21,637 bases of DNA from a virus. Position numbers and translations under genes: made by a program. The notes beneath the pieces were generated by a model. It made no database searches. It was given only the letters and a program-made list of their open reading frames with translations, and was not told the origin of the DNA. Every line of letters begins with the position of its first letter. Within the stretch, counting starts at the first letter, position 1. Positions 6,333 through 17,485 of the stretch are shown piece by piece. Location: positions 1 to 21,637 of the IMG/VR virus record IMGVR_UViG_3300008216_001633, one strand, 5' to 3'.

Positions 6333-6575
6333 TTATTTCCTTCTCCACTCTCGTAGAAATGCTTGATTTTTTAATTGCCGTTCATGCTCGCTAATAGTTG
6401 CTACAGCATCCTTCTGAGAATATCCGAGCTGCTTCATCCTAGCTACACTAACTACTGTGACATTACATTCGCCGCAACACTTTCCTTTAGCTACAGGTGC
6501 TGCATTATGTCCGCCATCCCATCCATCAGGGTCAGCCTTTATTTCTTCTTCACATATCACGCATATTTTTTCCAT
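6333..6575 (-). CDS. Zinc-finger-like phage mini-protein (CxxC...GHN...CCxxCN)
   Basis: 80 residues when started at the ATG that overlaps the stop of the upstream ATP-grasp gene (TAATG), with GCAGGAG 10 bases upstream. A longer in-frame start at 6647 would lie wholly within that gene and has less support. The sequence MEKICVICEEEIKADPDGWDGGHNAAPVAKGKCCGECNVTVV has C5/C8 and C33/C34/C37, with GW.GGHNA.PV..GKCC..CN, a pattern I know from many unnamed phage proteins. The C-terminal half is a charged helix. It probably binds zinc; the function is unknown. Confidence 0.75.
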   Translation of the reverse strand: MEKICVICEEEIKADPDGWDGGHNAAPVAKGKCCGECNVTVVSVARMKQLGYSQKDAVATISEHERQLKNQAFLREWRRK

Positions 6576-7366
6576 TAAGCTGTTACTCCTGCCGTTATCG
6601 GTCTTACTTGTAGTATCCAGGGTTTGTCGTCTTGATCTATTGCCCACTCTATATCCACAGGTCTGCCGTAGTTATTTGCTAGCCTCTTAGCTTCAGTCCA
6701 TATGGTATGCAAGGAAGTCTGTCCAAAGAATGGGCTGACTAGGTAGTCATCACGGTTTAGTTCTGGCGTTACAAAATTTTTGGGGTCTAAAAAGAGCATG
6801 CTACTATCACCAGTACCATCCACTACACCGCCTGCTCCTTCTTCATACTCCAACATCATCCTGTCAGTACCTTCCACTGGCTCCTTGGTGAATAGAACAC
6901 CAGAGTACTTGGCATCTACCATATTCATAATGATTACAGCAGGTACACTTAGAGTTGATAGGTCACGAGCTTCTTGATAAGTTAGTACTCTTTCTGCTAG
7001 AGCCGAGTCTCTCACCTCTCTTACTGCATGCTCTATACCAGAGATTGGGACATTGAGTTTAGACTCAAATATTCCTGCGAAACTTTGGTTCTTTCCGTCT
7101 TCTCCTATAGCAGAGGAACGTACCGCATAGGTACTTTCCTTAATGAATTTATACTGCACAGAATCTAGGTTGCTAGGACCAATAGAATGCCACGCCTTGT
7201 TACATATATCAGGCAGCCTATCATCAGGACAGTCAGAAGTTATAACTACCCAGTCAGGCACTAGAACAGGGTCTATCTTCCTGAGTTGTAGTGCCTTGCC
7301 ACCTATTACATTAACTGTATGGTCAGGTTTACTGGGGTAATCTCGTACCAAATATCTACTGTTCAT
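6575..7366 (-). CDS. Stand-alone PEP synthase/PPDK-type ATP-binding (ATP-grasp) domain
   Basis: A 263-residue protein matching the N-terminal nucleotide-binding domain of PEP synthase, pyruvate phosphate dikinase and rifampicin phosphotransferase. Motifs in order: IGGKALQL at 21-28, VPDWVVIT at 36-43, YAVRSSAIGED at 80-90, QSFAGIFES at 94-102, VPAVIIMNMV then YSGVLFTKEP at 154-163, PVDIEWAID at 236-244 and LQVRPIT at 252-258. In full enzymes this domain transfers the beta-phosphate of ATP to a swivelling His domain. Here the gene ends just after RPIT and neither the His domain nor the PEP/pyruvate barrel is fused. A separate His-domain protein is encoded at 10051-10368 in the same leftward block. 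At 263 residues it is shorter than the usual 330-350 but keeps all core motifs. AAAGGA precedes the ATG, and there is a 10-base overlap with the upstream gene. Confidence 0.85.
   Translation of the reverse strand: MNSRYLVRDYPSKPDHTVNVIGGKALQLRKIDPVLVPDWVVITSDCPDDRLPDICNKAWHSIGPSNLDSVQYKFIKESTYAVRSSAIGEDGKNQSFAGIFESKLNVPISGIEHAVREVRDSALAERVLTYQEARDLSTLSVPAVIIMNMVDAKYSGVLFTKEPVEGTDRMMLEYEEGAGGVVDGTGDSSMLFLDPKNFVTPELNRDDYLVSPFFGQTSLHTIWTEAKRLANNYGRPVDIEWAIDQDDKPWILQVRPITAGVTA
7053..7068. promoter_or_regulatory. Core variant of the 16-bp palindrome
   Basis: TTGAGTTTAGACTCAA: full consensus arms with one core change (TTTAAA to TTTAGA), inside the ATP-grasp gene. Confidence 0.45.
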
Positions 7367-7682
7367 TGTTGTCCTTTATGTAGTTCTTTAGTGTGAATGT
7401 CAGTGACTCTACTGATTCTTTCTGCATCATCTTTAAGTTCCAGTCTATTGTCGAGCACTCCTTCTCGACATCCTTGACGATGCGGTCAACATAGTTCAAT
7501 AGCTTTTTCTCGTCATCAAACATGGGGACATGCCCATTGTGCTGTTGCAAATCAAACACAGATGTTGGACATCCAGCTCCACTTCTACTGCACTTAACTA
7601 CTGGTGCTTGTGTTCCCAGTTCCAGTAGCATCTTCACCCAGTCCTTCGGTGGCTGTGAGTAAAATGTCGCTGTCCCCTGCAT
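7356..7682 (-). CDS. Hypothetical protein between phosphatase and ATP-grasp genes
   Basis: 108 residues if it starts at the ATG at 7682, which has AAGGGG 6 bases upstream. The ORF stays open upstream to 7754, but that stretch lies in the low-complexity tail of the phosphatase gene in another frame and has no better ribosome site. Even with this start it overlaps the phosphatase gene by 89 bases; a later start at 7631 would reduce this. The sequence contains KCSRSGAGCPTSVFDLQQHNGH (two Cys, a possible metal or redox pair) and a helical C-terminus (KKLLNYVDRIVKDVEKECSTIDWNLKMMQKE). I do not recognise a family. Its place between two parts of a phosphotransfer module makes a related role possible. 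Confidence 0.6.
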   Translation of the reverse strand: MQGTATFYSQPPKDWVKMLLELGTQAPVVKCSRSGAGCPTSVFDLQQHNGHVPMFDDEKKLLNYVDRIVKDVEKECSTIDWNLKMMQKESVESLTFTLKNYIKDNNEQ

Positions 7683-8574
7683 CAGTTTCCCCTTCTGGTT
7701 CCTCACTGTCTGCAGTTTCACTTGTAGGTTCAATAGTTTCTTCGATTGTTCCATTTTGTTTAGCTAACTCCTCCGCATATTTTGCAATTAAATCTTCCTG
7801 GGGTTTGGTTTCAATAGCCTTGTCGCAGTGCTTTGCCCGTACCATCTTGATGGCATCCTCCGCTGTCATCCCTTGGTACACCAGTATTCCTGCCAGTAGT
7901 GTTCCTGTCCTGCCATGAGAGCCGTGGCATCCTATCTCTAGGGTTTCTCCCTCAAATATTCTAGATAGACACCAGACTACAGCCTCGCTGTACTCTCTTA
8001 GCGGTATGCCCTGCATATCTGCCCACTTGATATAGAGTGTGGGTATATCTTCCTTTTCAAACAGGTCTGGATTAACAGGAGCATTGGCTGTAAACCAGAA
8101 CATGTTACCGAGCATCCATCCTGAGTCCATGTAGCATCCCATCGTAGGGTCTGCTCCTGTTCTCTTAGCACTCGGTGTTCCCTTACCAGACAGGTATATC
8201 TTCCATCCATCTAGTAGATCGAACTCATCCATCCAGTGGTTACAGGGTTTGTATACTGGGTATGAGTATTTGCTCTTTGTATAAGTAGAGCCTTTGGTTA
8301 TCTTGTTGCCTCCCCATCCATCAACTGCTGTCTCTAGCTCAAGGACATCAGCATCAAACATCTGTAGTCTAGTGTCGTCAAACACATAGACATCTACGTC
8401 ATCACCCCTGACACCAACAACTCTTCCCCTTTTCTTATCAGGTGTTTTTACTATGTCACCCTTGAGAAAGAACGATATATCTCCTACGTCTTTCCATAGG
8501 TTCCCTTGATACTTCTTCTTTTTCTTACCCAATAGTTTTCTCCCTTTTCTTAGCAGCTTTCGCATTGATAACAT
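7594..8574 (-). CDS. Tyrosine/dual-specificity-type protein phosphatase with SH3-like N-terminal domain and acidic tail
   Basis: 326 residues from the ATG at 8574, chosen because AAAGGAGGAGAT lies just upstream; an ATG at 8643 is in frame but lacks one. Order: a Lys-rich N-terminus; a small beta-barrel-like segment at about 36-82 (KGDIVKTPDKKRGRVVGVRG...VFDDTRLQMFDADVLEL), similar in style to KOW/SH3 domains; then the phosphatase domain. IKWADMQGIP carries the general acid candidate D186. C216-HGSHG-R222-TG is the CX5R catalytic loop, and GMTAEDAIKMVRAKHCDKAIETKPQEDLI is the following helix and Q-loop region. The usual His before the Cys is Gly. The last 50 residues are acidic, Thr/Ser/Glu-rich and probably disordered. 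It would hydrolyse a phospho-residue or another phosphoester. It is flanked by the two halves of a split phosphotransfer enzyme. Confidence 0.8.
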   Translation of the reverse strand: MLSMRKLLRKGRKLLGKKKKKYQGNLWKDVGDISFFLKGDIVKTPDKKRGRVVGVRGDDVDVYVFDDTRLQMFDADVLELETAVDGWGGNKITKGSTYTKSKYSYPVYKPCNHWMDEFDLLDGWKIYLSGKGTPSAKRTGADPTMGCYMDSGWMLGNMFWFTANAPVNPDLFEKEDIPTLYIKWADMQGIPLREYSEAVVWCLSRIFEGETLEIGCHGSHGRTGTLLAGILVYQGMTAEDAIKMVRAKHCDKAIETKPQEDLIAKYAEELAKQNGTIEETIEPTSETADSEEPEGETDAGDSDILLTATEGLGEDATGTGNTSTSS

Positions 8575-9380
8575 TGACACATCTCCTCCTTTATTGTGTC
8601 TAGTGGTAGTAACCCCTGCACTATGTGGGACGAGTAGTACCACAGCTTGCAGTAGCTACCATTCTGGTTTAAATCCAGAACATACTTCACATCTTGTGTG
8701 TTCCACCACTTGTTGAAATAGATACCACCGTTATGCTGTAGTCCCCAGCATGTATCGACAAATGTTTGAGGTGTTGTTTCATCCCTTTCAAACATGTATA
8801 GGGTATTGGCTATGGTTCCCCACCTGTGTCCACCGTAGCTTGCACCCCATTTGCCACCGTCATTGAATGCTTCCACTGCCCACTTGAGTGCCAGTACTCC
8901 ATACCTTGACCTAAACCAGTACCATCCTTCCCAAGCATGAGTCCTTCCACCCTGTACAGTGCCATCTCTCAGTGCTTCCTTCAGTGGTCTTGCAAATCCA
9001 TCAGTACTCCTACTGTGCCTTAGCTCACCACCTACTGCCATGTCTGTGTATCTAGAGAACTGGTCAACCAGTATGTCAGTGTGTCTTGCCAGGTATGGTT
9101 TAAACCTTTCCTCATCGTAGATAGTAGCCAAGTGGAGTATGTAGTAGTCGGCAGCAGCCTTCGATAGGTTCCAGCCTGTTGAGTTTAAACCCCAACGGTT
9201 TGCTCCAGCTTTTACCAGTACTTTCTGGTTTGGATTAACAGGTCCAGTATCTTGATATGTATTAACTACAGCTTCTGTAGTAGTCTCGGTGATATTAACC
9301 CAAGTGCCGTGCCACTCCTCTATAAAATAGGTAGTTTTACCTACCTTGTTGTCTAACCAGTGATCACTTAGGTTGCTCAT
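8550..9380 (-). CDS. Trp-rich phage protein of unknown function
   Basis: A 276-residue protein. The middle reads DMAVGGELRHS at about 113-123, then RTHAWEGWYWFRSRYGVLALKWAVEAFN, KWGASYGGHRWGTIANTL, TFVDTCWGLQHNGGIYFNKWW. I remember this spacing (GGELRH ... W...YG..AL..A...FN...W...YGG..W ... FVD..W.LQHN.G..F.K) from unnamed phage proteins, without a known function. The conserved His, Arg, Asp and Trp residues suggest an enzyme or ligand-binding fold. The C-terminus has C268-Q-C270-YQ-C273-ES-C276, a possible metal knot that lies in the overlap with the phosphatase start. It begins 3 bases after the SprT-like gene and carries two GTTTAAAC sites. Confidence 0.7.
   Translation of the reverse strand: MSNLSDHWLDNKVGKTTYFIEEWHGTWVNITETTTEAVVNTYQDTGPVNPNQKVLVKAGANRWGLNSTGWNLSKAAADYYILHLATIYDEERFKPYLARHTDILVDQFSRYTDMAVGGELRHSRSTDGFARPLKEALRDGTVQGGRTHAWEGWYWFRSRYGVLALKWAVEAFNDGGKWGASYGGHRWGTIANTLYMFERDETTPQTFVDTCWGLQHNGGIYFNKWWNTQDVKYVLDLNQNGSYCKLWYYSSHIVQGLLPLDTIKEEMCQCYQCESC
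9098..9105. promoter_or_regulatory. GTTTAAAC palindrome, site 6
   Basis: GGTTTAAACC, flanks TATG and CTTT. Coding as AGG TTT AAA C (Arg-Phe-Lys). Confidence 0.5.
9183..9190. promoter_or_regulatory. GTTTAAAC palindrome, site 7
   Basis: TTGAGTTTAAACCCCA from 9179, a complete left arm. It is only 85 bases (8 turns) from site 6, in the same gene. Confidence 0.55.
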
Positions 9381-9382
9381 GT

Positions 9383-10057
9383 TTACTGATCCTGCTTTTC
9401 AAAGTCAGTCATGCACTTTGTACAGTATGCTTCTAGGTTTACTGCACATCGGACATTGACTGGTGGATTACAGGCACAAGACCACTTCTTCTGCTTGCCT
9501 TTCGATGGTGTCTTAGGGGTTATCACGTTTAAGTGGATTGGTTCAGTCGTTGACGTAACAGTTACATCAGCTTCAACTGCTTCATAGTCCACTATCTCTG
9601 ACCTTATCTCATCTGCACCTATCTTGGTCAGTGTTTCAACAAAGACAACAGGGTCTATAGATAGAGCATCACCGTTCTTATCTGTTGCCACACCCCACTG
9701 GTTCATCTCATCCCTGAATATCTTGGTGTGATACCACTGTCCCTTCGGCTTGTGTATATCCTGATAGGCATGGACTGCATTGTGCAGTACTGCTATCACT
9801 GTCTCCACTTTAGTAAGGTCAGTCCTCATATCAAAGTGGTGCTTGAGACTGATGTTGTCACCCTCAAAGTAGTATTCCCCTGCTTTCTTGAGCCTGTCAT
9901 CGAATCCTATAACTACTGTTGGCAGGTTCTGTTGATATAGAAAATCATTCACTGCTCCATACAGTGTGTATGCCTTGTCAGCCTTGACCTGGTGCTTCCA
10001 GTCTAAGCTAGTTCTAGCGTGTTCTTGGACTGCCTTGTTTATACCTCCAGTTACCAT
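9383..10057 (-). CDS. SprT-like zinc protein lacking the catalytic glutamate
   Basis: A 224-residue protein with SprT/Spartan-like layout. The metal-site helix is VIAVLHNAVHAYQDIH with H92 and H96, and the third ligand H110 is in QWYHTKIFRDEM. A C-terminal zinc ribbon has KWSCACNPP (C194, C196) and AYCTKCMTDF (C212, C215). SprT proteins carry HExxH; here the motif reads HNAVH, so Asn93 replaces the general-base Glu. On known chemistry it should bind zinc but not cleave peptides normally. SprT relatives act on DNA-bound proteins. A linker at about 155-190 is acidic, then Lys-rich. AAAGGAGG lies 10 bases before the ATG, and the start overlaps the His-domain gene by 7 bases. It may be a DNA-binding remnant, or a protein with a new use for the fold. 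Confidence 0.78.
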   Translation of the reverse strand: MVTGGINKAVQEHARTSLDWKHQVKADKAYTLYGAVNDFLYQQNLPTVVIGFDDRLKKAGEYYFEGDNISLKHHFDMRTDLTKVETVIAVLHNAVHAYQDIHKPKGQWYHTKIFRDEMNQWGVATDKNGDALSIDPVVFVETLTKIGADEIRSEIVDYEAVEADVTVTSTTEPIHLNVITPKTPSKGKQKKWSCACNPPVNVRCAVNLEAYCTKCMTDFEKQDQ

Positions 10058-10368
10058 GTAATCTGTGCCTCCTTTATTCCCTTGACACTGATTGTTATGA
10101 ACTTGCCTGCTAACTGGGTAGCATTACCAGTTCTAACTATGCATGGTTTGTTCATTTCCCTTGCTACTATCGCAGCGTGGCACGTTATCGAGCCGATGTT
10201 AGTGGCAATAGCTGATGCCAGCTTCATTACTGGTACATTAGCTGGTACTGTCATATTAGCTACCAGTATGTCTCCTTCCTTGAAGTTAGGATCATCTGGT
10301 GTTCTAGCAATACCAGTTGCTTCTCCCTTGACTGCTCCGAATCCTTTCATTTCACTTATAACTTCCAA
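10051..10368 (-). CDS. Stand-alone PEP-utilising (phosphohistidine) mobile domain
   Basis: A 105-residue protein matching the swivelling His domain of PEP synthase, PPDK, enzyme I and rifampicin phosphotransferase. It reads GEATGIARTPDDPNFKEGDILVANMTVPANVPVMKLASAIATNIGSITCHAAIVAREMNKPCIVRTGNATQLAGKFITISVKG. The phosphate-accepting residue is H64 in SITCHAAIVARE (family: GGxTSHAAIVAR). The domain is complete but nothing is fused to it, whereas the family normally has ATP-binding and substrate domains in the same chain. The partner is probably the ATP-grasp protein at 6575-7366. Start: TTG at 10368, with GGAAGGAG 8 bases upstream and a stop of the preceding gene just before it; an ATG six codons in is the alternative. 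Confidence 0.85.
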   Translation of the reverse strand: MEVISEMKGFGAVKGEATGIARTPDDPNFKEGDILVANMTVPANVPVMKLASAIATNIGSITCHAAIVAREMNKPCIVRTGNATQLAGKFITISVKGIKEAQITW

Positions 10369-10578
10369 TTAACTTACTCCTTCCCCTTCTAAGAGGTCGA
10401 TTGCTGCTGTTACTGCATCACTATCCATCTCATCGAACTGTTCAACAGCCTGTTTAAACGGTAGTATCTCTTGCTCTAGAGTAGAGACAGCTTCATTTAT
10501 GTTCTCTATTTTCTGGTTGGCACTCCCTATTATTTCTTCTCCTCTTTCTGCTAGCTCTCTGATTTCCGAGATATCCAT
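10369..10578 (-). CDS. Small coiled-coil acidic protein, first gene of the phosphotransfer operon
   Basis: 69 residues from the ATG at 10578, which has AAGGAGG 6 bases upstream. An in-frame start at 10632 would lie upstream of the inferred transcription start and is rejected. The sequence MDISEIRELAERGEEIIGSANQKIENINEAVSTLEQEILPFKQAVEQFDEMDSDAVTAAIDLLEGEGVS is almost wholly helical and acidic, with heptad-like spacing of I/L/V. Phages often carry such small helical proteins; no family is recognised. It stands at the 5' end of the leftward operon, directly before the His-domain gene (stop and TTG adjacent), and could be a partner or scaffold for it. Confidence 0.7.
   Translation of the reverse strand: MDISEIRELAERGEEIIGSANQKIENINEAVSTLEQEILPFKQAVEQFDEMDSDAVTAAIDLLEGEGVS
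10452..10459. promoter_or_regulatory. GTTTAAAC palindrome, site 8
   Basis: Flanks GCCT and GGTA, with no arm conservation beyond the core. Coding as CCG TTT AAA CAG. Confidence 0.4.
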
Positions 10579-10607
10579 ATAGACCTCCTTGTCTACTTGT
10601 TTCTCTA

Positions 10608-10622
10608 CGCCGACCTTCGGCG
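10608..10622 (-). other. Leader hairpin
   Basis: CGCCGA, loop CCT, TCGGCG, in the 5' untranslated part between the promoter and the ribosome site of the 10369-10578 gene. It would stabilise the mRNA 5' end. Confidence 0.4.
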
Positions 10623-10631
10623 AGTCGCTCA

Positions 10632-10660
10632 AACATACCGAGACTACTAATGAATGTCAA
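10632..10660 (-). promoter_or_regulatory. Sigma-70-like leftward promoter of the phosphotransfer operon
   Basis: On the minus strand: TTGACA (10660-10655), a 17-base spacer, then TATGTT (10637-10632). Transcription would start near 10625, about 47 bases before the ATG at 10578. The -35 box is the left arm of the 11-bp inverted repeat at 10652-10679, so a dimer bound there would shut the promoter. Confidence 0.65.
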
Positions 10661-10679
10661 TGTATTCTCATTGACATTC
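10652..10679. promoter_or_regulatory. Operator-like inverted repeat, copy A
   Basis: An 11-bp arm GAATGTCAATG, loop TATTCT, CATTGACATTC. Each arm holds a TTGACA -35 hexamer pointing outwards. The core TGTCAATGTATT..CATTGACA recurs at 12842-12863 (copy B). Confidence 0.6.
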
Positions 10680-10694
10680 TGTGTAGTATTGGTA

Positions 10695-10967
10695 TTAATA
10701 CTCGTTTGGAAACAGTACCGTTGTGACTTCTGTGTCCCTGATAATCCAGATTTTGTCACCGCCTTTGGGGTCAGGGTAAGAAGCTAGGATATACCCGTAC
10801 TCTCCCTTCTGTAGTGACTGTAAACTATCGGAGTTTTTACTCCAGTCTTCCTTGTCCAAGTCACCCCAGTCACTAGACATGAACCTGTTTAAACTCTTGT
10901 GCACTCTCATCGCAAAGTCTTTATCACTTGCGACCTTTTCGTTTATACCTCTTGTCATTACTATCAT
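10695..10967 (-). CDS. DUF3768-like small protein (WGDLD...IWII...TTVLFPNEY)
   Basis: A 90-residue protein with SSDWGDLDKEDWSKNSDSLQS, GEYGYILASYPDPKGGDKIWIIRD and TTVLFPNEY, which fits a family of uncharacterised plasmid and phage proteins (DUF3768-like, from memory). The function is unknown; the pattern suggests a compact alpha/beta domain. AGGAG stands before the ATG. The stop of the upstream gene shares bases with the start, so it is translationally coupled. It is the last gene before the intergenic operator/promoter at 10632-10679. It carries a GTTTAAAC site near its 5' end. Confidence 0.7.
   Translation of the reverse strand: MIVMTRGINEKVASDKDFAMRVHKSLNRFMSSDWGDLDKEDWSKNSDSLQSLQKGEYGYILASYPDPKGGDKIWIIRDTEVTTVLFPNEY
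10887..10894. promoter_or_regulatory. GTTTAAAC palindrome, site 9
   Basis: Right arm TCTT, left ACCT. Coding as AGT TTA AAC (Ser-Leu-Asn), 74 bases into the gene. Confidence 0.45.
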
Positions 10968-11176
10968 TAGCTTTGCTCCTCATGCTGTTCCAACTTTTGT
11001 TTCTTCCCGTAGCTGTAGGACGTAGGGATTCCCTCCTTGTCTATCCTGCTTCTTAGCTTCTCTAGCCTGGTAGTATCATCTAGCTTGTATAGTTCAAGGC
11101 GTAGTTCCTCTACCTTGAGCAGTGCCCATTGGACTGCCAAGTCTATCGCTGTTAGTAGCTCATGTTCTTTGCTCAT
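10967..11176 (-). CDS. Small charged helical hypothetical protein
   Basis: 69 residues from the ATG at 11176, with AGGGGGA 4 bases upstream. An in-frame ATG at 11206 sits right beside a terminator and is less likely. The sequence MSKEHELLTAIDLAVQWALLKVEELRLELYKLDDTTRLEKLRSRIDKEG is a long amphipathic helix followed by a basic, Gln/Glu-rich tail. No family is recognised. It directly precedes the DUF3768-like gene (1-base overlap) and lies downstream of the terminator at 11212-11241, so it needs read-through or its own promoter. Confidence 0.6.
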   Translation of the reverse strand: MSKEHELLTAIDLAVQWALLKVEELRLELYKLDDTTRLEKLRSRIDKEGIPTSYSYGKKQKLEQHEEQS

Positions 11177-11211
11177 ATATCCCCCTAGCTTGCTGTATTT
11201 GGACATAAAAA

Positions 11212-11241
11212 TAGGGCAAGGTATCCAAGTACCTTGCCCTA
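11212..11241 (-). terminator. Intrinsic terminator on the minus strand
   Basis: A perfect 12-bp stem (11212-11223 with 11230-11241), loop TCCAAG, followed on the minus strand by TTTTTATG. It ends the transcript of the 11253-11501 gene. Confidence 0.8.
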
Positions 11242-11252
11242 GATTTAAGACG

Positions 11253-11501
11253 TTAATCTAGAATACAGGTCATGCTTTTTATCTTGTGCTTAGCACAGTA
11301 TTTGTGGTGCATAACATCTCGTTTGACTATTAGCGTGTAGTATTCGAGGCCATGTACCTTGAGGAATAGTTTTTTGTCGGTATAGGTATCGAACACTAGC
11401 TTTAGGTTTAGTATCCTTTCCTCTACTTCCTCTAGAGTATTTGGTGTATCGAGTTTACTATCCCCGAACATTAGGCTTTCTGTTATGTCTATTGCTACCA
11501 T
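11253..11501 (-). CDS. Hypothetical protein (82 aa)
   Basis: MVAIDITESLMFGDSKLDTPNTLEEVEERILNLKLVFDTYTDKKLFLKVHGLEYYTLIVKRDVMHHKYCAKHKIKSMTCILD. It has an acidic N-terminal half, a strand-rich centre and a C-terminus with HHKYCAKH...C, which could bind a metal. AAGGAG stands 10 bases before the ATG. It is the last gene before the terminator at 11212-11241. No family is recognised. Confidence 0.6.
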   Translation of the reverse strand: MVAIDITESLMFGDSKLDTPNTLEEVEERILNLKLVFDTYTDKKLFLKVHGLEYYTLIVKRDVMHHKYCAKHKIKSMTCILD

Positions 11502-11515
11502 AGCTTTCTTGCTCC

Positions 11516-11722
11516 TTATTTAACCTTGACTAACTTGCCGTTTTGCATAGTACCTTGAGCATACCAAGTATGTGGTGCTGGATAGTGTGGTCCTTCCAGA
11601 TAGACAGTACCGTTTTCGGGTATTGTTCCTAAGCCTGGTTCGTACACTTCAACTATTTCACCATTCTTTATAGCATCCTTGAGTGCTTTCTTAGTTTTGT
11701 AGTTCTTAGAGGCGTAGGTCAT
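11516..11722 (-). CDS. Small conserved-type phage protein (TKKALK...GPHYPAPHTWYA)
   Basis: A 68-residue protein. The pattern KNYKTKKALKDAIKNGEIVEVYEPGLGTIPENGTVYLEGPHYPAPHTWYAQGTMQNGKLVKVK is one I recall from small phage and plasmid proteins of unknown function: a short basic helix, then a beta-rich half with the signature EGPHYPxPHTWYA. The two His residues and Trp/Tyr suggest a binding site. AAGGAG precedes the ATG. It lies 14 bases upstream of the 11253-11501 gene, probably in one transcript. Confidence 0.7.
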   Translation of the reverse strand: MTYASKNYKTKKALKDAIKNGEIVEVYEPGLGTIPENGTVYLEGPHYPAPHTWYAQGTMQNGKLVKVK

Positions 11723-11737
11723 ATATTCTGCTCCTTA

Positions 11738-12229
11738 TCACCAAGGCAGTTTCTCTACTTGTTCATCGGTGACTAAGCCTGTAGCTCTACATACCTTGCA
11801 TTCTGCTTTAGCACAGTCACATTCCCAGTCAAACGGCATCCTAGTTTGTACCCTTCTGCTAGGTTTCTTTGGGTTTAACCTCAAACCCATGCTGCTAAAT
11901 AGCCTGTCGATAGAATCACCTTCCTTGTTTCTATTCATCTGGTCTCTTGTTAGCTTGTGTTTAAACCTGTAGATTCTCTCTAGTTCTTTAGCTGTTAACT
12001 CATTCAGCTTGCCGACTGTAGTTAGCTTCAGGTCTTCCTTGTCTCTAATCTGGTTGTAGCCTTTTAGTCCTGCTTGAAGCAGGAAGTTATGCTGACACTG
12101 GTTAGAGCATAGGTAGATCAGTCCTTTAGGACTGTTGATAGTAGTTCTACATTCCCTAGAGCACTGGAAGCATATGTCACTTACTGTAGTCACTTCTAGT
12201 ACTCTTAGTTTCGCTTGATTCTTAGGCAT
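11738..12229 (-). CDS. Protein with two zinc-binding Cys clusters
   Basis: A 163-residue protein. The N-terminal cluster is CFQCSRECRTT...YLCSNQCQHNF (C20, C23, C27 and C41, C45), a treble-clef or MYM-like finger. The C-terminal cluster is WECDCAKAECKVCRATG (Cys pairs at about 137-147). Between them lies a helical, basic region (TAKELERIYRFKHKLTRDQMNRNKE). It is probably a nucleic-acid-binding protein, perhaps a regulator, because it is near the divergent control region; no exact family is named. AAGGAA precedes the ATG. Its 5' half holds two short hairpins (12068-12084 and 12119-12134), the left edge of the hairpin-rich zone. Confidence 0.65.
   Translation of the reverse strand: MPKNQAKLRVLEVTTVSDICFQCSRECRTTINSPKGLIYLCSNQCQHNFLLQAGLKGYNQIRDKEDLKLTTVGKLNELTAKELERIYRFKHKLTRDQMNRNKEGDSIDRLFSSMGLRLNPKKPSRRVQTRMPFDWECDCAKAECKVCRATGLVTDEQVEKLPW
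11959..11966. promoter_or_regulatory. GTTTAAAC palindrome, site 10
   Basis: TTGTGTTTAAACCTGT from 11955. Coding as AGG TTT AAA CAC (Arg-Phe-Lys-His). Confidence 0.45.
12068..12084. repeat. Inverted repeat, 7-bp stem
   Basis: TCCTGCT, loop TGA, AGCAGGA, coding. Confidence 0.45.
12119..12134. repeat. Inverted repeat, 7-bp stem
   Basis: CAGTCCT, loop TT, AGGACTG. The centre reads CTTTAG, as in many repeats of the neighbouring array. Confidence 0.5.
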
Positions 12230-12278
12230 GGCTTAGTTCCTTGCTAGGTTAGGATTTAGGTTAGCTATAAACGAGAAA

Positions 12279-12308
12279 AGCCCTACAGGACTAAAGTCCT
12301 GTAGGGCT
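12279..12308 (-). terminator. Intrinsic terminator of the 12327-12743 gene
   Basis: A perfect 14-bp stem (12279-12292 with 12295-12308) and a two-base loop; on the minus strand it runs into TTTTCTCGTTT. It separates the 12327-12743 gene from the rest of the leftward block. Confidence 0.75.
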
Positions 12309-12312
12309 AGTG

Positions 12313-12336
12313 GGTTAGCTAGCTAGCTAGCTAACC
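12313..12336. repeat. Perfect 24-base palindrome over the stop codon
   Basis: GGTTAGCTAGCT followed directly by its reverse complement; internally a run of AGCT units. The TAG stop of the leftward gene (12327-12329) is inside it. Confidence 0.7.
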
Positions 12337-12743
12337 TTGATTCCCAAATCAGCCAAGGCTGATTTGCCTCTTCCACTAGAATCTCTGTATGCAGAGATTC
12401 TAGCACCGGGAACTCCCTTACCGCTTTGACCTCGACCGACTAATCTCACCGAGATTAGTTTTAGCTCTTCGGCTTTTTCCATCGCCGAAATGACAGCTTT
12501 GCTGTCACAGTCGTAGTAAAGCCTAAAGGCTTCGTTGAATCCACTCAGTACTGAGTGGAAGCTAGTGGTCTTACGAGTAAGACCAGTTTTCTTATCGGTG
12601 AATTCTTCACCGATATTCCCCTTAGTTCCAGCTAGGCTAGACTTAGGGTCTAGCCAGAGTGCTAGAAAGTCTCCGACTTTCATCTTGCCGTCGTCTCCAG
12701 CTTTCTCTAGCTTCGCTAGTGCTGCTTTGGTCAGCTTGGACAT
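12327..12743 (-). CDS. Hypothetical protein encoded by a hairpin-packed gene
   Basis: A 138-residue basic protein, MSKLTKAALAKLEKAGDDGKMKVGDFLALWLDPKSSLAGT..., with VLSGFNEAFRLYYDCDSKAVISAMEKAEELKLISVRLVGRGQSGKGVPGARISAYRDSSGRGKSALADLGIKVS at the C-terminus. The N-terminal Lys/Ala helix and the Gly/Arg/Lys-rich end suggest DNA or RNA binding, but no family is recognised. AAGGAGGACATAA precedes the ATG. The gene is its own transcription unit, with a terminator just downstream. The oddity is the DNA itself: the coding sequence is almost continuous short-loop inverted repeats (see the array entry), with third-position choices that complete the stems. The protein reads as a normal globular sequence, so both layers appear to be kept. 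Confidence 0.75.
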   Translation of the reverse strand: MSKLTKAALAKLEKAGDDGKMKVGDFLALWLDPKSSLAGTKGNIGEEFTDKKTGLTRKTTSFHSVLSGFNEAFRLYYDCDSKAVISAMEKAEELKLISVRLVGRGQSGKGVPGARISAYRDSSGRGKSALADLGIKVS

Positions 12744-12751
12744 TTATGTCC
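12738..12751 (-). promoter_or_regulatory. Start-codon hairpin of the 12327-12743 gene
   Basis: On the mRNA, GGACAT-AA-ATGTCC: the AUG lies in the 3' arm and the 5' arm joins the AAGGAGG ribosome site. The next hairpin (12756-12769) sits just upstream. Translation could be limited by this fold. Confidence 0.45.
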
Positions 12752-12840
12752 TCCTTGCCCTTTAGGGCATCTCCCTCAGTTTACTGAGGGGTTTGTTCGG
12801 CGAAATTGCCGATGTATTCATCCCACCTCCCTAAGACTCT

Positions 12841-12864
12841 GTGTCAATGTATTACCATTGACAC
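12841..12864. promoter_or_regulatory. Operator-like inverted repeat, copy B
   Basis: GTGTCAATG, loop TATTAC, CATTGACAC. It shares TGTCAATGTATT and CATTGACA with copy A at 10652-10679. The pairing resumes after one mismatch (CTC/GAG). Confidence 0.6.
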
Positions 12865-13000
12865 TGAGAGCGAAGCGATCTTAGGGTGGTAGACTTCTGA
12901 TGGGGAGGGGTATTTAGGGAAGGTATTGAATGCTCTTTCTTCCAGGAGGGGAGTCAGCGACCTCCAATTTCAACCTGAGATGTTTACATCTCAGAGTCCA

Positions 13001-13008
13001 GTTTAAAC
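13001..13008. promoter_or_regulatory. GTTTAAAC palindrome, site 11
   Basis: TCCAGTTTAAACTCAA at 12997-13012, a complete right arm, in the divergent control region. Confidence 0.55.
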
Positions 13009-13127
13009 TCAAACTGCCAGACTAGCAAGCTAGTCTGTGGTAAACTCAGCGGAAATTCGACAAAGAGTATGTAAACATACTCAAGCTACTAAACCTAGCG
13101 GTTTACCGCTAGGTCAGAGAGGTAAAT

Positions 13128-13628
13128 ATGCTAGGTACTAGGATAGATAGCAAGACTGATGATACTTATAAAGCACTAAGTCCTAGCCAAAAACGTAGCT
13201 GGAGAAACCAAGATAAGTTCTTATCTTGCTACAGTGAGACGAGGAGCAAGACTACATCTGCTAGTTATGCTGGAGTTAAGTATCGAACAGTAATGAAGTG
13301 GCAGAAGGATAACTACTTTGGTTTCATGGAACGGTTAGAAGAAGCAGACTTCCAGTTCTGTGAGTCACTTGAGCAGTTGGCATTGGAGAGAGTTAAGATG
13401 CAGGACGCTAAGTCCAATCCGATCTTGCTGATCACACTGTTGAATGCGAACTTGCCTATGAAGTATAGACCTACTGTCGTCATGAACGATGATACTGCTA
13501 AGGATGTACTGAGAGAGCTTAGAGCCTTGTCTAAAGACTCACCTGAACAGCTTGCTGAAGCTCCTGAACCAGAGAAATCAGCTCTTGATCAAGTTAACGA
13601 GATACTGACTAGTAAGATAGATGAGTAG
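13128..13628 (+). CDS. Terminase small-subunit-like DNA-binding protein
   Basis: A 166-residue protein. QKRSWRNQDKFLSCYSETRSKTTSASYAGVKYRTVMKWQKDNYFGFMERLEEADFQFCESLEQLALERVKM matches the small-terminase pattern: a KF...Y..T..KT.A...AG....TV..W helix-turn-helix at about residues 24-60, then a helix with aligned acidic residues and LE..A..R. The IL.LI.LLNANLPMKYRP end of the domain is also typical. It would recognise the packaging site and recruit TerL. The C-terminal third is acidic and Pro-rich. AGAGAGG precedes the ATG, directly after the last hairpin of the array. The gap to terL holds two short genes and two intergenic stretches. Confidence 0.7.
   Translation: MLGTRIDSKTDDTYKALSPSQKRSWRNQDKFLSCYSETRSKTTSASYAGVKYRTVMKWQKDNYFGFMERLEEADFQFCESLEQLALERVKMQDAKSNPILLITLLNANLPMKYRPTVVMNDDTAKDVLRELRALSKDSPEQLAEAPEPEKSALDQVNEILTSKIDE
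13209..13228. repeat. Inverted repeat, 9-bp stem
   Basis: CAAGATAAG, loop TT, CTTATCTTG, coding in the small-terminase-like gene. It is the last strong repeat of the run beginning near 12068. Confidence 0.6.
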
Positions 13629-13695
13629 GGGGCATGGCTTAGACTTTGTGTTTGTATGGTATCTATACCAGTGCCAGTTTATTTTATATAAATAG

Positions 13696-13723
13696 ACAGA
13701 TAAGTCTTTAGAGACTTATCTGT
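13696..13723 (+). other. Strong hairpin after the small-terminase-like gene
   Basis: A perfect 12-bp stem (13696-13707 with 13712-13723), loop TTAG, then TATATATACTATA rather than a T-run. A 14-base palindrome ACTATATATATAGT follows at 13730-13743. It may be an attenuator or processing site between two late genes. Confidence 0.55.
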
Positions 13724-13766
13724 ATATATACTATATATATAGTCTATATATATTAAGAGAGTTAAT

Positions 13767-13937
13767 ATGAATGATTTGTTTAGAAAGATACGCCCTCAGA
13801 TTATATTAGCGATATTTGTACTGGGACTTATCAGCACTGTGGCTCTTATGAGAGATGGCGAGCAGTACATAGCAGTGGTTACTGGATGTACTGGTGGTAT
13901 CATTGCCCTGGGGATGAAGCTATTAGACGGTGAGTGA
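13767..13937 (+). CDS. Small two-helix membrane protein (holin-like size)
   Basis: A 56-residue protein: MNDLFRKIRP, hydrophobic segment QIILAIFVLGLISTVALM (about 11-28), short polar turn RDGEQ, second hydrophobic segment YIAVVTGCTGGIIALGMKLL (about 34-53), then DGE. A basic N-terminus, two membrane helices and a polar tip are compatible with a class II holin or another small phage membrane protein. The only ribosome site is a weak AAGAGAG before the ATG. It stands between the small-terminase-like gene and the intergenic region upstream of terL. The holin role is only a suggestion from size and topology. Confidence 0.55.
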   Translation: MNDLFRKIRPQIILAIFVLGLISTVALMRDGEQYIAVVTGCTGGIIALGMKLLDGE

Positions 13938-13986
13938 TGTGGGGATGGACGGTGGCTTCATTCCCTGCAACACTGCAACACTTAGA

Positions 13987-13994
13987 GTTTAAAC
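13987..13994. promoter_or_regulatory. GTTTAAAC palindrome, site 12
   Basis: TTAGAGTTTAAACTGAGA; intergenic. Confidence 0.5.
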
Positions 13995-14070
13995 TGAGAC
14001 ACTGTAAAAGAATACTGTAAAGTATGCGCCAGATGATCTGTCGTAGTTTTGTCCGATCGGCCAAAACGTA

Positions 14071-14078
14071 GTTTAAAC
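14071..14078. promoter_or_regulatory. GTTTAAAC palindrome, site 13
   Basis: TAGTTTAAACTA, a 12-base perfect palindrome; intergenic. Confidence 0.5.
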
Positions 14079-14168
14079 TAGAGTTATGTTGCTAGTATGG
14101 CAACATTTACTAGTAAAGGCACTAGTGCCTATCAGTTAAGGCACGGGTACATTGATAGTAAAAGGGGA

Positions 14169-14176
14169 GTTTAAAC
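14169..14176. promoter_or_regulatory. GTTTAAAC palindrome, site 14
   Basis: GGGAGTTTAAACTCAA with a complete right arm, 45 bases before the ATG of the basic mini-protein. It is the last exact copy in the window. Confidence 0.55.
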
Positions 14177-14220
14177 TCAATTCATTCGCAAACGAATTAA
14201 ACCAAAGAAGGAGGTTCGAT

Positions 14221-14331
14221 ATGCCGAAGGTGGGTAAGAGGCAATTTGCCTATACGAAGAAGGGTAAGGCTGCAGCTACGAAGTACGCCAAGCAGTCAGG
14301 GAAGAAGATGACTAAGAAGAAGAAGTACTGA
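14221..14331 (+). CDS. Basic 36-residue protein upstream of terL
   Basis: MPKVGKRQFAYTKKGKAAATKYAKQSGKKMTKKKKY. Nearly half the residues are Lys/Arg. AAGGAGG stands 5 bases before the ATG, the best ribosome site of the late genes, and its stop overlaps the terL start (TGATG). I recall short peptides of the form MPxVGxxxFxYTxxGKAAAKxxA in the structural modules of many environmental phages. DNA binding during packaging or a role as a virion-associated peptide is plausible, but no function is established. Confidence 0.75.
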   Translation: MPKVGKRQFAYTKKGKAAATKYAKQSGKKMTKKKKY

Positions 14332-15650
14332 TGGCTTCTCCTGTCTTTGAGATAGTTGGCTTTGACCCTACGGATGAGCAGTCCCAGATATTAAATTCAG
14401 GCAAGAGGTTTATACTCGTTGCAGGGGGTGAGCAGGCTGGTAAGTCGATGGTGGCTTCCAAGTTCCTACTCCATAAGTTCCTTGAGGACGACAGTCCTGG
14501 TTTATACTGGCTGGTAGCTGCGGATTACGAGAGAACGAGAGCGGAGTTTGAATATCTTTCTGAGGACTTTGCAAAGCTCGGCATACTTGCCGAGGTTACA
14601 AAAAGGGTAGACCCTGGCAGGATCGTACTTGCAGATGGGACACGGATCGAAACCAAGTCAGCCAAGGACCCAAGGACACTCGCAATGCGAGCACCCAATG
14701 GTATCGTTGGCTGTGAAGCGTCACAACTTGATCTGGAAACCTTCTACCGAATGCGTGGAAGGTGCGCCCCGAAAGGTGGCTGGCTGTTCCTTGGTGGGAC
14801 ATTTGAAAGCTCTCTTGGATGGTATCCGCAGACGTTTACGGCTTGGGAGTCGGGGGTAAATGACGAGCAGTCATTCTCCCTGCCCAGCTACTCCAACCAC
14901 CACCTCTACCCTGGTGGCAGGAATGATCCTGAGATAAGAAGACTGGAGGCGGTGTCGAGCGATGATTTCTTTATGGAGAGGATTGAAGGAAAGCCTGTAC
15001 CGCCTAGAGGACTTGTCTTCAACGAGTTCAGAGCCAATATACACGCAGGAGAAATTGATTATATCCCACACGAGCCTGTTCATATTTGGATTGACCCTGG
15101 GTATGCTGGCGGTTATGCGCTGGAAGCGGTACAGATCATAGACGATCATGTGAGAGTCTTTGACGAGATATATGAGACAGGTCTTGTCACGGAAGAAGTT
15201 GCAACTATAGCCATGACCAAACCGTGGTGGCAGGATGTGGAGTACGGGGTTATAGACATCGCAGGCACTCAGCATCAGGCTATGCCAGCACCTGCCGAGG
15301 TGTGGATGGCTAACACTGGTTTATACCTTGCCTCACAGAAAGTTCCCATCAACGATGGGACGGAAAGACTGAAGAGTTTCCTGAAAGTCGATCCCATCAC
15401 TGGCTACCCGAAGTTGAGTATAGACTCAAAATGCAGTGGTGTTCTCTCCGAGTTCGGCGCAGTGGCAAATCCTTTCACTGGTCAGTCACAGGCATACAGA
15501 TGGAAGATGGACAGGGACGGAAATATAGTTGGTAACGTGCCAGAAGATAAGTATAATCATGGTGTAAAGGCATTGATTTACGGTCTCGTGTACCATTTTG
15601 GGTACAGCTACGCTAGTGACAGGAAGAAGATAAAGGTGAAGCACTGGTGA
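14331..15650 (+). CDS. terL: Terminase large subunit
   Basis: A 439-residue DNA-packaging motor. The ATPase domain has Walker A GEQAGKS at 33-39, a GIVGCEASQLDL segment at 124-135 as the likely Walker-B/acidic region, and the coupling motif GGTFESS at 155-161. The nuclease domain has an RNase-H-like fold with IWIDPG (D255) and VIDIAG (D309), followed by a C-terminal segment with KVDP and KMDRDGNI. It pumps DNA into the prohead and cuts it. It is translationally coupled to the basic mini-protein upstream and overlaps the portal start by 4 bases (GTGA). Base composition rises in G+C here and stays higher through the portal gene. Confidence 0.9.
   Translation: MASPVFEIVGFDPTDEQSQILNSGKRFILVAGGEQAGKSMVASKFLLHKFLEDDSPGLYWLVAADYERTRAEFEYLSEDFAKLGILAEVTKRVDPGRIVLADGTRIETKSAKDPRTLAMRAPNGIVGCEASQLDLETFYRMRGRCAPKGGWLFLGGTFESSLGWYPQTFTAWESGVNDEQSFSLPSYSNHHLYPGGRNDPEIRRLEAVSSDDFFMERIEGKPVPPRGLVFNEFRANIHAGEIDYIPHEPVHIWIDPGYAGGYALEAVQIIDDHVRVFDEIYETGLVTEEVATIAMTKPWWQDVEYGVIDIAGTQHQAMPAPAEVWMANTGLYLASQKVPINDGTERLKSFLKVDPITGYPKLSIDSKCSGVLSEFGAVANPFTGQSQAYRWKMDRDGNIVGNVPEDKYNHGVKALIYGLVYHFGYSYASDRKKIKVKHW
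15414..15429. promoter_or_regulatory. Core variant of the 16-bp palindrome in terL
   Basis: TTGAGTATAGACTCAA: both arms perfect, core TTTAAA changed to TATAGA. The only arm-complete copy in the late arm. Confidence 0.4.
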
Positions 15651-17485
15651 GAAAGACTGCAGACGAAATAGCAAAACTGGTTGAGGGACACAGAGACTCG
15701 ACATATCCCTTCAGAGATAGGATGCAATCTGACTATGACCTGTACATTATGCGCCCATACGATGCTGGTGACGGGTACGAGTCATATACATCCAACGAGC
15801 CACGCACTTATGCCGACAAGATAATCTCATGGATGAGTTCTGCGGAGCTGATCATACGAATCCCCAACATCGAAGAGCCGAGGGAGATGAGAGAAGTCAA
15901 TGATGCCAAGGAGAAGTTTCTCGTAGGCATTCTCAGGGCTGCGGATGAACGGCTACGGCGCAGGCTTCAGCCATCACTTAGAGAACAGTTGGCATGGTTT
16001 GTTGCTCTCAGAGGATGGTATGCAGGAAGGGCATTACTTCACATCGACTCCAAGGAGAGAACACAGGTTGATATAACTCCGTGGGACCCTCTTCATACAT
16101 ACTGGGGTGAAGGTGAAGAGGGTCTTGCGTGGGCATGTTATCGGATACACAAAACAAAGGATGAGATTCTTCAGCAGTACAGTATTAAACTTGACGAGCA
16201 GGATGACGAGACACCTATAGAAGTCTATGACTACTATGATGAAGAGCATAATATTGTCTGTACGGGCGATACCATACTGAAGCAGGCTACTCCCCACGGA
16301 GCCGACAGGGTTCCAGTGTTTATAGGTATGGTTGGACCTCAACCGCTCGTACAGAATATAGATAATACATCCGTAACCGACACTATCGTTGAGTACGGGG
16401 AATCCGTTTTTGCTCCCAACAGGGAGATATACGATAAGCACAACTTCACCATGTCAGTGATGATGGAGATGGTTGCCCGTTCCCGTAAGCAGGGGATAAC
16501 CATCACATCAAGAGATGGGCAGAAGACACTTGATGAAGACCCGTACAAGGCAGGAGCCGAGGTTGCTCTTGCACAGGGAGAGGATATAAAGCCCCTTGGA
16601 CTGATGGAAGTCGCCAAGGAGACTGGAGCCTATATGGGCATGGTCTCAGGAGAACTTCAGCGTGGGGCTATACCGCATACCGTGTACGGAGACCTGCAGT
16701 TCCAGCTATCGGGATTTGCCATTAATACTCTCAGGCAGGGTATAGACAGTGTTCTACAGCCACGGATAGTGGCAATGGAAGATGCCTACATACAGATTTC
16801 TCATCTTATATGCGACCAGTATTCCACTGGAATATACGATCCTGTCAGTGTGAGCGGAAGAGACAGAAACAGGGTTTATTTCAGTGAGGCTGTGGCTCCT
16901 GACTCCATAGGCATGGCAGGAACTCCAGAGATATCTCTTGTAAGCCAGTTGCCAGAAGATGATATGTCCCGTATGAGCATGGCGCAGATGGCAAGAGAGG
17001 GTCCGACCCCCTTGCTGTCAGACATCTATGTCAGGGATAAGATACTTGGAATGCAAGATGCTGATTCTATAGAAGACTCAATCAAAGAACAGATGGCAGA
17101 GAGAGTGCTGCCAGAAGCCTCTCTCTGGTCTCTTCTTCAGGCAACTGAAGAACGTGGACGACCTGATCTTGCCCAGTTCTACTACGGTGAGTTGATGCAC
17201 TTACTAATGCAGAAGCAGATGATGAGACAGCAAAGCATGATGCCACAGCAGCCGGGTGCCCCTCAAGGTCCCGGTGCTCCTCAAGGAGCTGGTGGCGGAC
17301 AGGGAGGTCCACCGACAGCAAACCCAATGGTTATGCCTAATGCCATGATGGGCGTTCCGCCTCCTGCCCCGACACCACAGGGTGGTCCCAATGTTCCGCC
17401 TGGCTCTCCGAGACCAGGTGCACAGAACGGTCAGGGAGCAGAAGAGGCATTAAGGAGTCTGGGGTTACTGGGACCAAGGGGGTAG
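15647..17485 (+). CDS. Portal protein
   Basis: A 612-residue protein, starting at GTG within the terL stop (GTGA). The N-terminal and central parts fit phage portals of this architecture: RDRMQSDYDLYIMRPYD, the helical SWMSSAELIIRIPN, LAWFVALRGWYAGRALLHIDS, ITPWDPLHTYWGEGEEGLAWACYRIHKTKDEI, PVFIGMVGPQP, and the long helix/loop SVFAPNREIYDKHNFTMSVMMEM followed by PHTVYGDLQFQLSGFAINTLRQGIDSVL. The last 90 residues are Gln/Met, then Pro/Gly-rich (QQPGAPQGPGAPQGAGGG...), a disordered tail. As portal it would form the dodecamer at the capsid vertex and dock TerL. Gene order (terL, then portal) supports the call; family details cannot be checked without comparison. Confidence 0.8.
   Translation: MRKTADEIAKLVEGHRDSTYPFRDRMQSDYDLYIMRPYDAGDGYESYTSNEPRTYADKIISWMSSAELIIRIPNIEEPREMREVNDAKEKFLVGILRAADERLRRRLQPSLREQLAWFVALRGWYAGRALLHIDSKERTQVDITPWDPLHTYWGEGEEGLAWACYRIHKTKDEILQQYSIKLDEQDDETPIEVYDYYDEEHNIVCTGDTILKQATPHGADRVPVFIGMVGPQPLVQNIDNTSVTDTIVEYGESVFAPNREIYDKHNFTMSVMMEMVARSRKQGITITSRDGQKTLDEDPYKAGAEVALAQGEDIKPLGLMEVAKETGAYMGMVSGELQRGAIPHTVYGDLQFQLSGFAINTLRQGIDSVLQPRIVAMEDAYIQISHLICDQYSTGIYDPVSVSGRDRNRVYFSEAVAPDSIGMAGTPEISLVSQLPEDDMSRMSMAQMAREGPTPLLSDIYVRDKILGMQDADSIEDSIKEQMAERVLPEASLWSLLQATEERGRPDLAQFYYGELMHLLMQKQMMRQQSMMPQQPGAPQGPGAPQGAGGGQGGPPTANPMVMPNAMMGVPPPAPTPQGGPNVPPGSPRPGAQNGQGAEEALRSLGLLGPRG

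Follow-up and report, generated by a model that had tools for sequence, protein, structure and literature searches.

The window analysed here, the whole of a 21,637-base virus record, comes from a tailed phage that carries the genes for both terminase subunits. The gene for the small subunit, TerS (13128–13628, plus strand), is the first rightward gene of a divergent pair, and that for the large subunit, TerL (14331–15650, plus strand), was used as the query in searching for relatives. On the minus strand, to the left of TerS, lies an ORF of 138 amino acids, p138 (12327–12743). A dense array of hairpins, belonging to neither strand in particular, extends from 12279 to 13114 and consists of perfect stems with unrelated arms and physical loops mostly of 3–4 nt.

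At the end of the array, a 14-bp stem (12279–12308) is followed on the minus strand by TTTT and, from its sequence, is probably the intrinsic terminator of p138. A 12-bp stem with a formal loop of 0 (12313–12336) overlaps the end of p138, and within the gene lie stems of 10 bp (12345–12366), 12 bp (12376–12403), 9 bp (12439–12459), 7 bp with a triloop (12491–12507), 10 bp (12540–12559), 9 bp (12566–12585), 10 bp with a triloop (12593–12615), 8 bp (12635–12655) and 7 bp with a GGA triloop that is C-G closed on the minus strand (12665–12681). The intergenic part of the array (12773–13114) has stems at 12773–12790, 12841–12864, 12975–12994, 13018–13037, 13065–13082 and 13093–13114, and a further stem (13209–13228) lies inside the 5' part of TerS. 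The 1-kb bin that ends at the cumulative GC skew minimum of the window (12001–13000) falls within the array.

When loops of up to 6 are allowed, 12279–13114 holds 21 non-overlapping perfect stems of at least 6 bp, 17 of at least 7 bp, 15 of at least 8 bp and 12 of at least 9 bp. The initial annotation had listed these last twelve, and all of them lie exactly where it placed them, with stems of 9–14 bp and loops of 0–6; its figure of about 24 hairpins is also fair, since 23 are counted once 5-bp stems are allowed. Its description of the stretch as almost continuous inverted repeats captures the density but is generous at a 7-bp cut, where 322 of the 836 bases lie within perfect stems. An inverted-repeat scan finds just 22 stems of at least 7 bp in the 20,625 bases outside 12229–13240, whilst the 1,011-base stretch around the array has 23 stems of at least 6 bp against 2.25 in base-shuffled copies. 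No direct repeat of at least 10 bases (0 families) occurs in 12230–13240, so that the arms are not copies of each other, in agreement with the initial annotation, which had argued that the array is not a copied element. The array stretch is present without a single substitution in three further IMG/VR records (L003, L004 and L005), and an assembly accident is therefore unlikely.

Other features of the window can be noted here. The palindrome AGTTTAAACT occurs five times (749–758, 13000–13009, 13986–13995, 14070–14079 and 14168–14177; shuffles give an expectation of 0.01), and GTTTAAAC fourteen times. The longer form is also present in the related genomes G002, G003 and G008, and both are absent from G005 and from the part of G006 that was read; the palindrome may be an operator or some other motif of this subgroup. 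A perfect 15-bp stem with a 4-nt loop (1841–1874), between leftward ORFs at 1286–1825 and 1879–3135, is terminator-like. Two early ORFs on the minus strand, 6575–7366 and 10051–10368, carry dikinase-like domains, with matches to the ATP-binding PPDK_N domain (E 1.6e-32) and the mobile PEP-utilising domain (E 6.3e-22) respectively; as predicted from these matches, the two ORFs are a split enzyme in a phage, and proteins of G002 resemble them by eye. The minus-strand ORF at 7594–8643 has weak Pfam matches, below the cut-off, to dual-specificity phosphatases and a PHROG label of thymidylate synthase, labels that disagree. A very large late protein is encoded in G001 (3,057 aa, 8075–17248) and G002 (2,929 aa, 8494–17283), and its counterpart runs off the right end of the window.

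Hairpins within p138 and its homologues

Nine perfect stems of at least 7 bp lie inside p138, against a mean of 0.47 and a maximum of 3 in codon-preserving shuffles. The initial annotation had named such shuffles as a possible source of refutation; this fails because they do not reproduce the stem count (0 of 300 reach 9). When 11 other ORFs of the window were codon-shuffled, only the adjoining 163-aa ORF beat all of its shuffles (3 stems, 0 of 300).

The p138 protein itself has no PHROG or Pfam match, and weak family matches (E 0.012 and 0.07) were obtained for single homologues only. A structure model of modest confidence (mean pLDDT 74) gave no match to known folds at E 0.001 or below, all matches being weak, and at most suggests a winged-helix protein. 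A profile search of IMG/VR found p138 at 20 loci; there was no match in GenBank phages, nor in GTDB genomes by a pattern scan.

Fourteen p138 genes were examined for stems of at least 7 bp, one that is cut short (L014) being omitted. The window, L010 and L012 have 9 each, L018 has 6, L099 has 5, L016 and L095 have 3, L024 and L098 have 2, L015 has 1, and L008, L023, L029 and L094 have none. Thus the trait is graded and can vanish while the protein stays. In L010, at 59% protein identity, the number of stems equals that of the window but the arm letters are mostly different, and the loops are mostly triloops where those of the window are mostly tetraloops. The TTTA and TAAA loops that had been remarked upon are frequent in the window, though not in every relative. 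At the codons matching the stem at 12593–12615, L010 and L018 also have stems, with other letters in the arms, whilst the stem at 12665–12681 has identical letters in L010. Joint maintenance of structure and protein, as had been proposed, therefore holds in close relatives, but some homologues keep the protein without the stems.

A place in the genome rather than a gene

The search with TerL gave 302 relatives, and the analysis was continued with the best 80. Eight records were profiled for hairpins. The main peak lies just upstream of TerS in the window, G001, G002, G003 and G005 (the window and G001 being one species); it is weaker in G008, G004 is hairpin-dense at the end of its contig, and in G006 the 40,000 bases that were read, out of 47,221, have no clear peak. 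Thus, as with the stemless p138 genes of L008, L023, L029 and L094, not every phage of the group has an array.

No p138 gene was found in G005, where the peak covers about 2.4 kb of L044, with a GP88-family gene (Pfam PF17338, E 2e-30), a 69-aa ORF, a 233-aa ORF and a leader. Amongst the best 80 of 202 GP88 homologues in IMG/VR, 8 have 8–16 stems in the matched stretch and 72 have 0–2, whilst codon shuffles of all 80 give a mean of 0.43. The terminase of the group is present on seven of the eight hairpin-rich GP88 pieces; the exception, L141, has a GP88 protein identical to that of L142. The feature is thus tied to a position in the genome that is common to the relatives and not to the p138 gene, a point that was invisible to the initial annotation.

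In the four records tested (the window, G001, G002 and G005), the peak lies at the cumulative GC skew minimum, where leftward early genes diverge from rightward late genes. The array thus lies at the divergent centre of a phage genome of about 37 kb, a size inferred from overlapping records. A peak at a divergent skew minimum is what an origin of replication would look like; transcription alone can also give it, as GC skew follows transcription too.

Other hairpin-rich stretches were seen as well. In L073 (G004), a dense array at 115–615 has 16 stems of at least 7 bp; part of it falls inside a rightward ORF of 129 aa, which matches a release-factor-like family below the threshold. L149–L152 (2066–3066) carry several copies of stems with the arm TTGTCCCGA, which resemble a copied element, unlike the arrays reported here. 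L156, from another contig, of 65,751 bases, has 10 stems in 1 kb (282–1282) with loops of 4–8, a different geometry.

Perfection and geometry of the stems

The stems are close to being perfect or absent. In nine hairpin-rich ORFs (L144 was omitted as a near copy of L142), there are 97 perfect 7-bp stems against 2.1 expected from codon shuffles, but only 9 with one internal mismatch against 10.4 expected and 22 with two against 22.2; at an 8-bp cut, one-mismatch stems number 3 against 5.1. In the whole hairpin-rich regions, whose limits were chosen by hand around the arrays, the 7-bp cut gives 22 one-mismatch stems where 19.4 are expected, and the 8-bp cut 15 where 6.9 are expected; the latter excess is modest and far below that of perfect stems (93 against 0.55).

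The geometry is also sharp. Over eleven hairpin-rich regions (15,221 bases), stems with a loop of 3 are at chance frequency at 2–4 bp, twofold above it at 5 bp, and then number 73 against 3.4 at 6 bp, 71 against 0.83 at 7 bp and 31 against 0.2 at 8 bp, with none longer than 11 bp. Loops of 4 behave similarly, with a tail to 15 bp, whilst loops of 5–8 are near chance, with some excess for long stems. The stems of the arrays are mostly of 6–10 bp, the longest being 17 bp.

The closing pairs of 108 triloops are C-G in 85, T-A in 17, A-T in 6 and G-C in none, where about a quarter each would be expected. Triloops of the GNA type number 40 on the coding strand and 22 on the other, and C(GNA)G on either strand accounts for 49 of the 108 triloops and 49 of the 169 hairpins overall. 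GNA loops are reported to form extraordinarily stable DNA mini-hairpins (PMC4686876), and the extrusion of the phage N4 promoter hairpins from supercoiled DNA is described as requiring the C-G closing pair and the G and A of the loop (PMC4496689). Loop energies from ViennaRNA take one value for all the triloops printed, with RNA and DNA parameters alike, and so these tables cannot separate the cases. Within ORFs, 84 of 125 stems pair codon positions in the register 1-3', 2-2', 3-1', against 50% by synonymous sampling; like the triloop and geometry counts and the ordered comparisons of GP88 genes, this count includes related sequences, so that the numbers are not independent. A hint of helical phasing of hairpin centres at 10.5 bp (0.185) was lost with more regions and periods, 8.7 bp being equally high, and was discarded.

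Paired changes in the arms

When six GP88 genes are aligned by codon, many stems fall at matching codons, and there is covariation between synonymous positions: the third base of a valine codon and the third base of a leucine codon, for instance, change together as T-A, A-T and C-G. In the 12 ordered comparisons amongst the four closest genes, 169 stems could be compared without gaps: 133 are perfect, 23 carry a single mismatch and 13 have at least two. In the first two classes, 156 stems together, both sides of a pair changed 47 times, whilst one side alone changed 19 times at the outermost pair and 4 times further in; the other 13 stems contain 44 one-sided changes. When only the inner six pairs are considered, 104 of 110 are perfect at 83–85% identity, 24 of them through one compensated pair, and the rest comprise two each with one, two and five mismatches. 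At 65–72% identity the corresponding numbers are 109 without a mismatch, 18 with one and 78 with two to six. Comparisons across alignment gaps were set aside in these counts of 169 stems and of inner pairs, as in the one-arm test below.

The four closest GP88 genes were also tested for covariation, with the structure taken from one of the four sequences. In this alignment 97.9% of 376 cells are paired. Of the 95 pairs, 6 have both members altered and none survives as G-U; 7 are not paired in at least one sequence, and 5 of those belong to a single helix. If the partners are slid by 1–3 columns, 25–38% of cells are paired and 0–1 pairs are changed on both sides. In 500 shuffles, none reaches the paired percentage and none the covariation score, 6 reach the six both-side pairs and 251 reach the number of pair types; two of the five covariation measures are thus weak against the shuffles. 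Across all 30 ordered comparisons of the six genes, whole stems show 195 double Watson-Crick changes against 557 single changes. Single changes outnumber double ones because many stems are lost at 65–72% identity, and the stems are thus lost in time.

Between the window and L007, the 181-base leader before TerS has 8 pairs altered in both arms; G-T and A-C cells are absent, 2 mismatches are of other kinds and 7 cells are gapped, in an alignment of only 56% identity. Between L044 and L046, at about 5% divergence, 302 pairs show 5 double changes, 6 single changes and 1 broken double, where the rate at unpaired sites (84 of 1829) would give about 28 singles and 0.2 doubles. Stems thus change somewhat less than unpaired sites, which selection also predicts. 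L010 and L012, at about 1% divergence, show 1 double and 1 single change in 155 pairs. Compensatory changes in homologues, which the initial annotation had looked to as a check, are therefore found in the closer relatives, where stems are kept through paired changes, but not throughout: p138 of L008, L023, L029 and L094 and 72 of the 80 GP88 genes are stemless or nearly so.

If one event rewrote an arm from its partner, the differences between two homologous stems should tend to lie in one arm. Of 80 comparisons, 14 have all their differences in a single arm where 11.1 would be expected, which is not significant; individual cases, such as the L146 stem at ORF position 895, resemble such rewriting.

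Discussion

Perfect stems of 6–10 bp with loops of 3–4 nt occur in large excess at this site in several related phages, both inside and between genes, and close relatives hold them at the same codons, often by way of paired changes. Folding at the level of DNA is well supported on the evidence of sequence comparison: G-T cells that are fewer than A-C cells and the lack of a one-mismatch excess at 7 bp favour Watson-Crick pairing of DNA. The reading that best accommodates the data, which is put forward tentatively and with slightly less than even confidence, is that of an array of DNA hairpins at the divergent centre of the genome whose arms are corrected against each other. Judging from gene order and skew, the site is probably a replication origin or the most negatively supercoiled zone of the genome. 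The initial annotation had offered both a DNA-folding, origin-like region and a process that perfects near-palindromes; both fit, and they are not mutually exclusive.

Single strands would fold either when negative supercoiling extrudes a cruciform or where an origin opens the strands, with tight loops such as C(GNA)G nucleating the mini-hairpins. After a mutation in one arm, the folded hairpin would be corrected against itself, through template switching of the polymerase or through mismatch repair acting on the extruded arm, and the mutation would either disappear or be passed to the opposite arm. What is left would be filtered by purifying selection on the proteins, giving synonymous covariation. 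The hairpins would need no job of their own; their place would mark where the DNA folds. The near-binary perfection of the stems and the frequency of double changes favour such correction. Against it stand the one-arm test, since one-event rewriting predicts an effect that was not significant, and the sharp geometry, which is equally expected under selection for extrusion. Conversion alone explains neither this geometry nor the frequent birth of new hairpins.

A somewhat less probable, though serious, alternative is strict selection for working DNA hairpins that are read by a protein or polymerase (a primase, RNA polymerase or initiator) at an origin or promoter zone, where each hairpin must extrude or fold by itself. 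If a single mismatch abolished extrusion, then only perfect stems would count. Selection of this kind would suit the narrow combination of 3–4 nt loops with 6–10 bp, the absence of G-C closing pairs in 108 triloops, the common place at the divergent centre and skew minimum and the retention of inner stems in 104 of 110 close comparisons, and a precedent is provided by N4, where hairpins with a 3-nt loop, extruded by supercoiling, are read (PMC4496689). It is harder to reconcile with arms that share no sequence in the window and with stem numbers and places that differ between relatives, and the lack of an excess of one-mismatch stems would require that tens of sites each matter individually. 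Nor was a hairpin-reading enzyme recognised amongst the proteins scanned, which represent part of each genome. A bolder proposal, which is rather unlikely as it stands, is that of a sequence-independent element: a control or origin zone made of an array of extrudable mini-cruciforms, each with a tight, often C-G closed loop and 6–10 perfect bp, which would be read by shape and would span whatever genes occupy the divergent centre.

Structure selected in the RNA of the leftward transcript, for stability, translation control or as a structured non-coding RNA, had been suggested by the initial annotation but is disfavoured and appears improbable. The minus strand does read as leader, ORF and terminator, and its 858 bases fold with –365 kcal/mol, but the other strand folds equally well (–363 in the window; –414 against –400 in L010). 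In structured RNA, G-U pairs are the usual intermediates of change and single mismatches are tolerated. Here G-T is not favoured over A-C (55 unpaired cells against 88 on the coding strand, over all GP88 pair columns), no pair is kept through G-U, one-mismatch stems are not in excess at 7 bp, and there were 0 matches in Rfam 15 at the gathering score. The rarity of GNRA and UNCG loops was dropped as an argument against RNA, as formal loops of 0–2 cannot be of those types; of 19 tetraloops that could be, 2 were, on the non-coding strand.

Repeated insertion of mobile palindromic elements, such as the Rickettsia palindromic elements or REP sequences, is very improbable. Short palindromes inside genes are known for such elements, as in the Rickettsia case mentioned by Mikhailov et al. 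(PMC6649704), and two GP88 stems do lie in lineage-specific stretches (an insertion in L148 and a C-terminal extension in L146). Most GP88 stems, however, are located where the sequences align without any insertion, paired changes at fixed codons cannot be put down to insertion, and the array has no direct repeat of at least 10 bases; no shared arm consensus was seen, in the window by repeat count and in the other arrays by eye only. Chance, base composition or an assembly artefact, for which only the general abundance of short palindromes speaks, can be practically disregarded, given that codon and Markov shuffles do not yield the counts, that the same stretch is found in three further records and that 72 more distant GP88 homologues have 0–2 stems.

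The arrays are a compact natural system where hairpins at the DNA level evolve jointly with coding sequence, and where some homologues have the array and others lack it. They make it possible to test if paired substitutions in stems come about through single conversion events, and also if short cruciforms occur in living cells at divergent promoters or origins. There is also a warning, in that paired changes in an alignment are no proof of RNA structure.

Comparison with known systems

No description of phage arrays of this density, geometry and place was found in the literature searched, a limited collection and set of terms, but partial likenesses exist. A lambda-type origin sits inside the initiator gene, and the position of the array within a gene that might encode a DNA-binding protein (p138) is similarly origin-like, although p138 as an initiator is only a guess. 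The lambda ori uses iterons, not hairpin arrays, and the L044 group has its array in other genes.

Quasipalindrome correction and the formation of hairpins by template switching are near parallels. Template switching has been reported to create and maintain hairpins in rRNA genes (PNAS 2022, PMC8794818), where, as would apply to the phage stems, one event can alter both partners and events are enriched at short, stable loops. Few one-sided intermediates are seen inside the kept stems of the four GP88 genes, as template switching would give, but double and single changes stand at 5 and 6 between L044 and L046. The setting also differs, being rRNA genes in that study (PMC8794818) and a dense array in phage genes here.

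The promoters of the N4 virion RNA polymerase are short hairpins with C-G closed 3-nt loops and a sheared G.A, extruded from supercoiled phage DNA (PMC4496689); of the 169 hairpins here, 49 have a C-G closed 3-nt loop with G and A on one strand or the other, and the rest do not. As described there, however, they are three early promoters with conserved sequence (PMC4496689), in contrast to many hairpins, often genic, with no consensus in the arms. No RNA polymerase was found amongst the proteins scanned, the late proteins of 3,057 and 2,929 aa lying outside the scan.

The closest described case is that of the nematomorph mitochondrial genes, which contain perfect coding palindromes (Mikhailov et al. 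2019, PMC6649704). Those palindromes, scattered in the mtDNA, were included from a length of 15 bp, with a mean of 43, a maximum of 142 and an average distance of 37 bp (PMC6649704), whereas the phage stems, mostly of 6–10 bp, are mostly below that length and gather at one place in the genome; the preference for C-G closed triloops is a further difference of the phage arrays from the palindromes as described in that report (PMC6649704). In both systems, as far as that account goes, perfect repeats lie in working genes and are gained and lost between relatives, imperfect repeats are not in excess and the pairing of codons has a phase bias (PMC6649704). The nematomorph authors infer conversion from binary perfection and the lack of imperfect repeats (PMC6649704), and the phage stems likewise exceed the expectation from codon shuffles and are perfect or absent within ORFs, with a modest excess of one-mismatch stems at 8 bp in whole regions.
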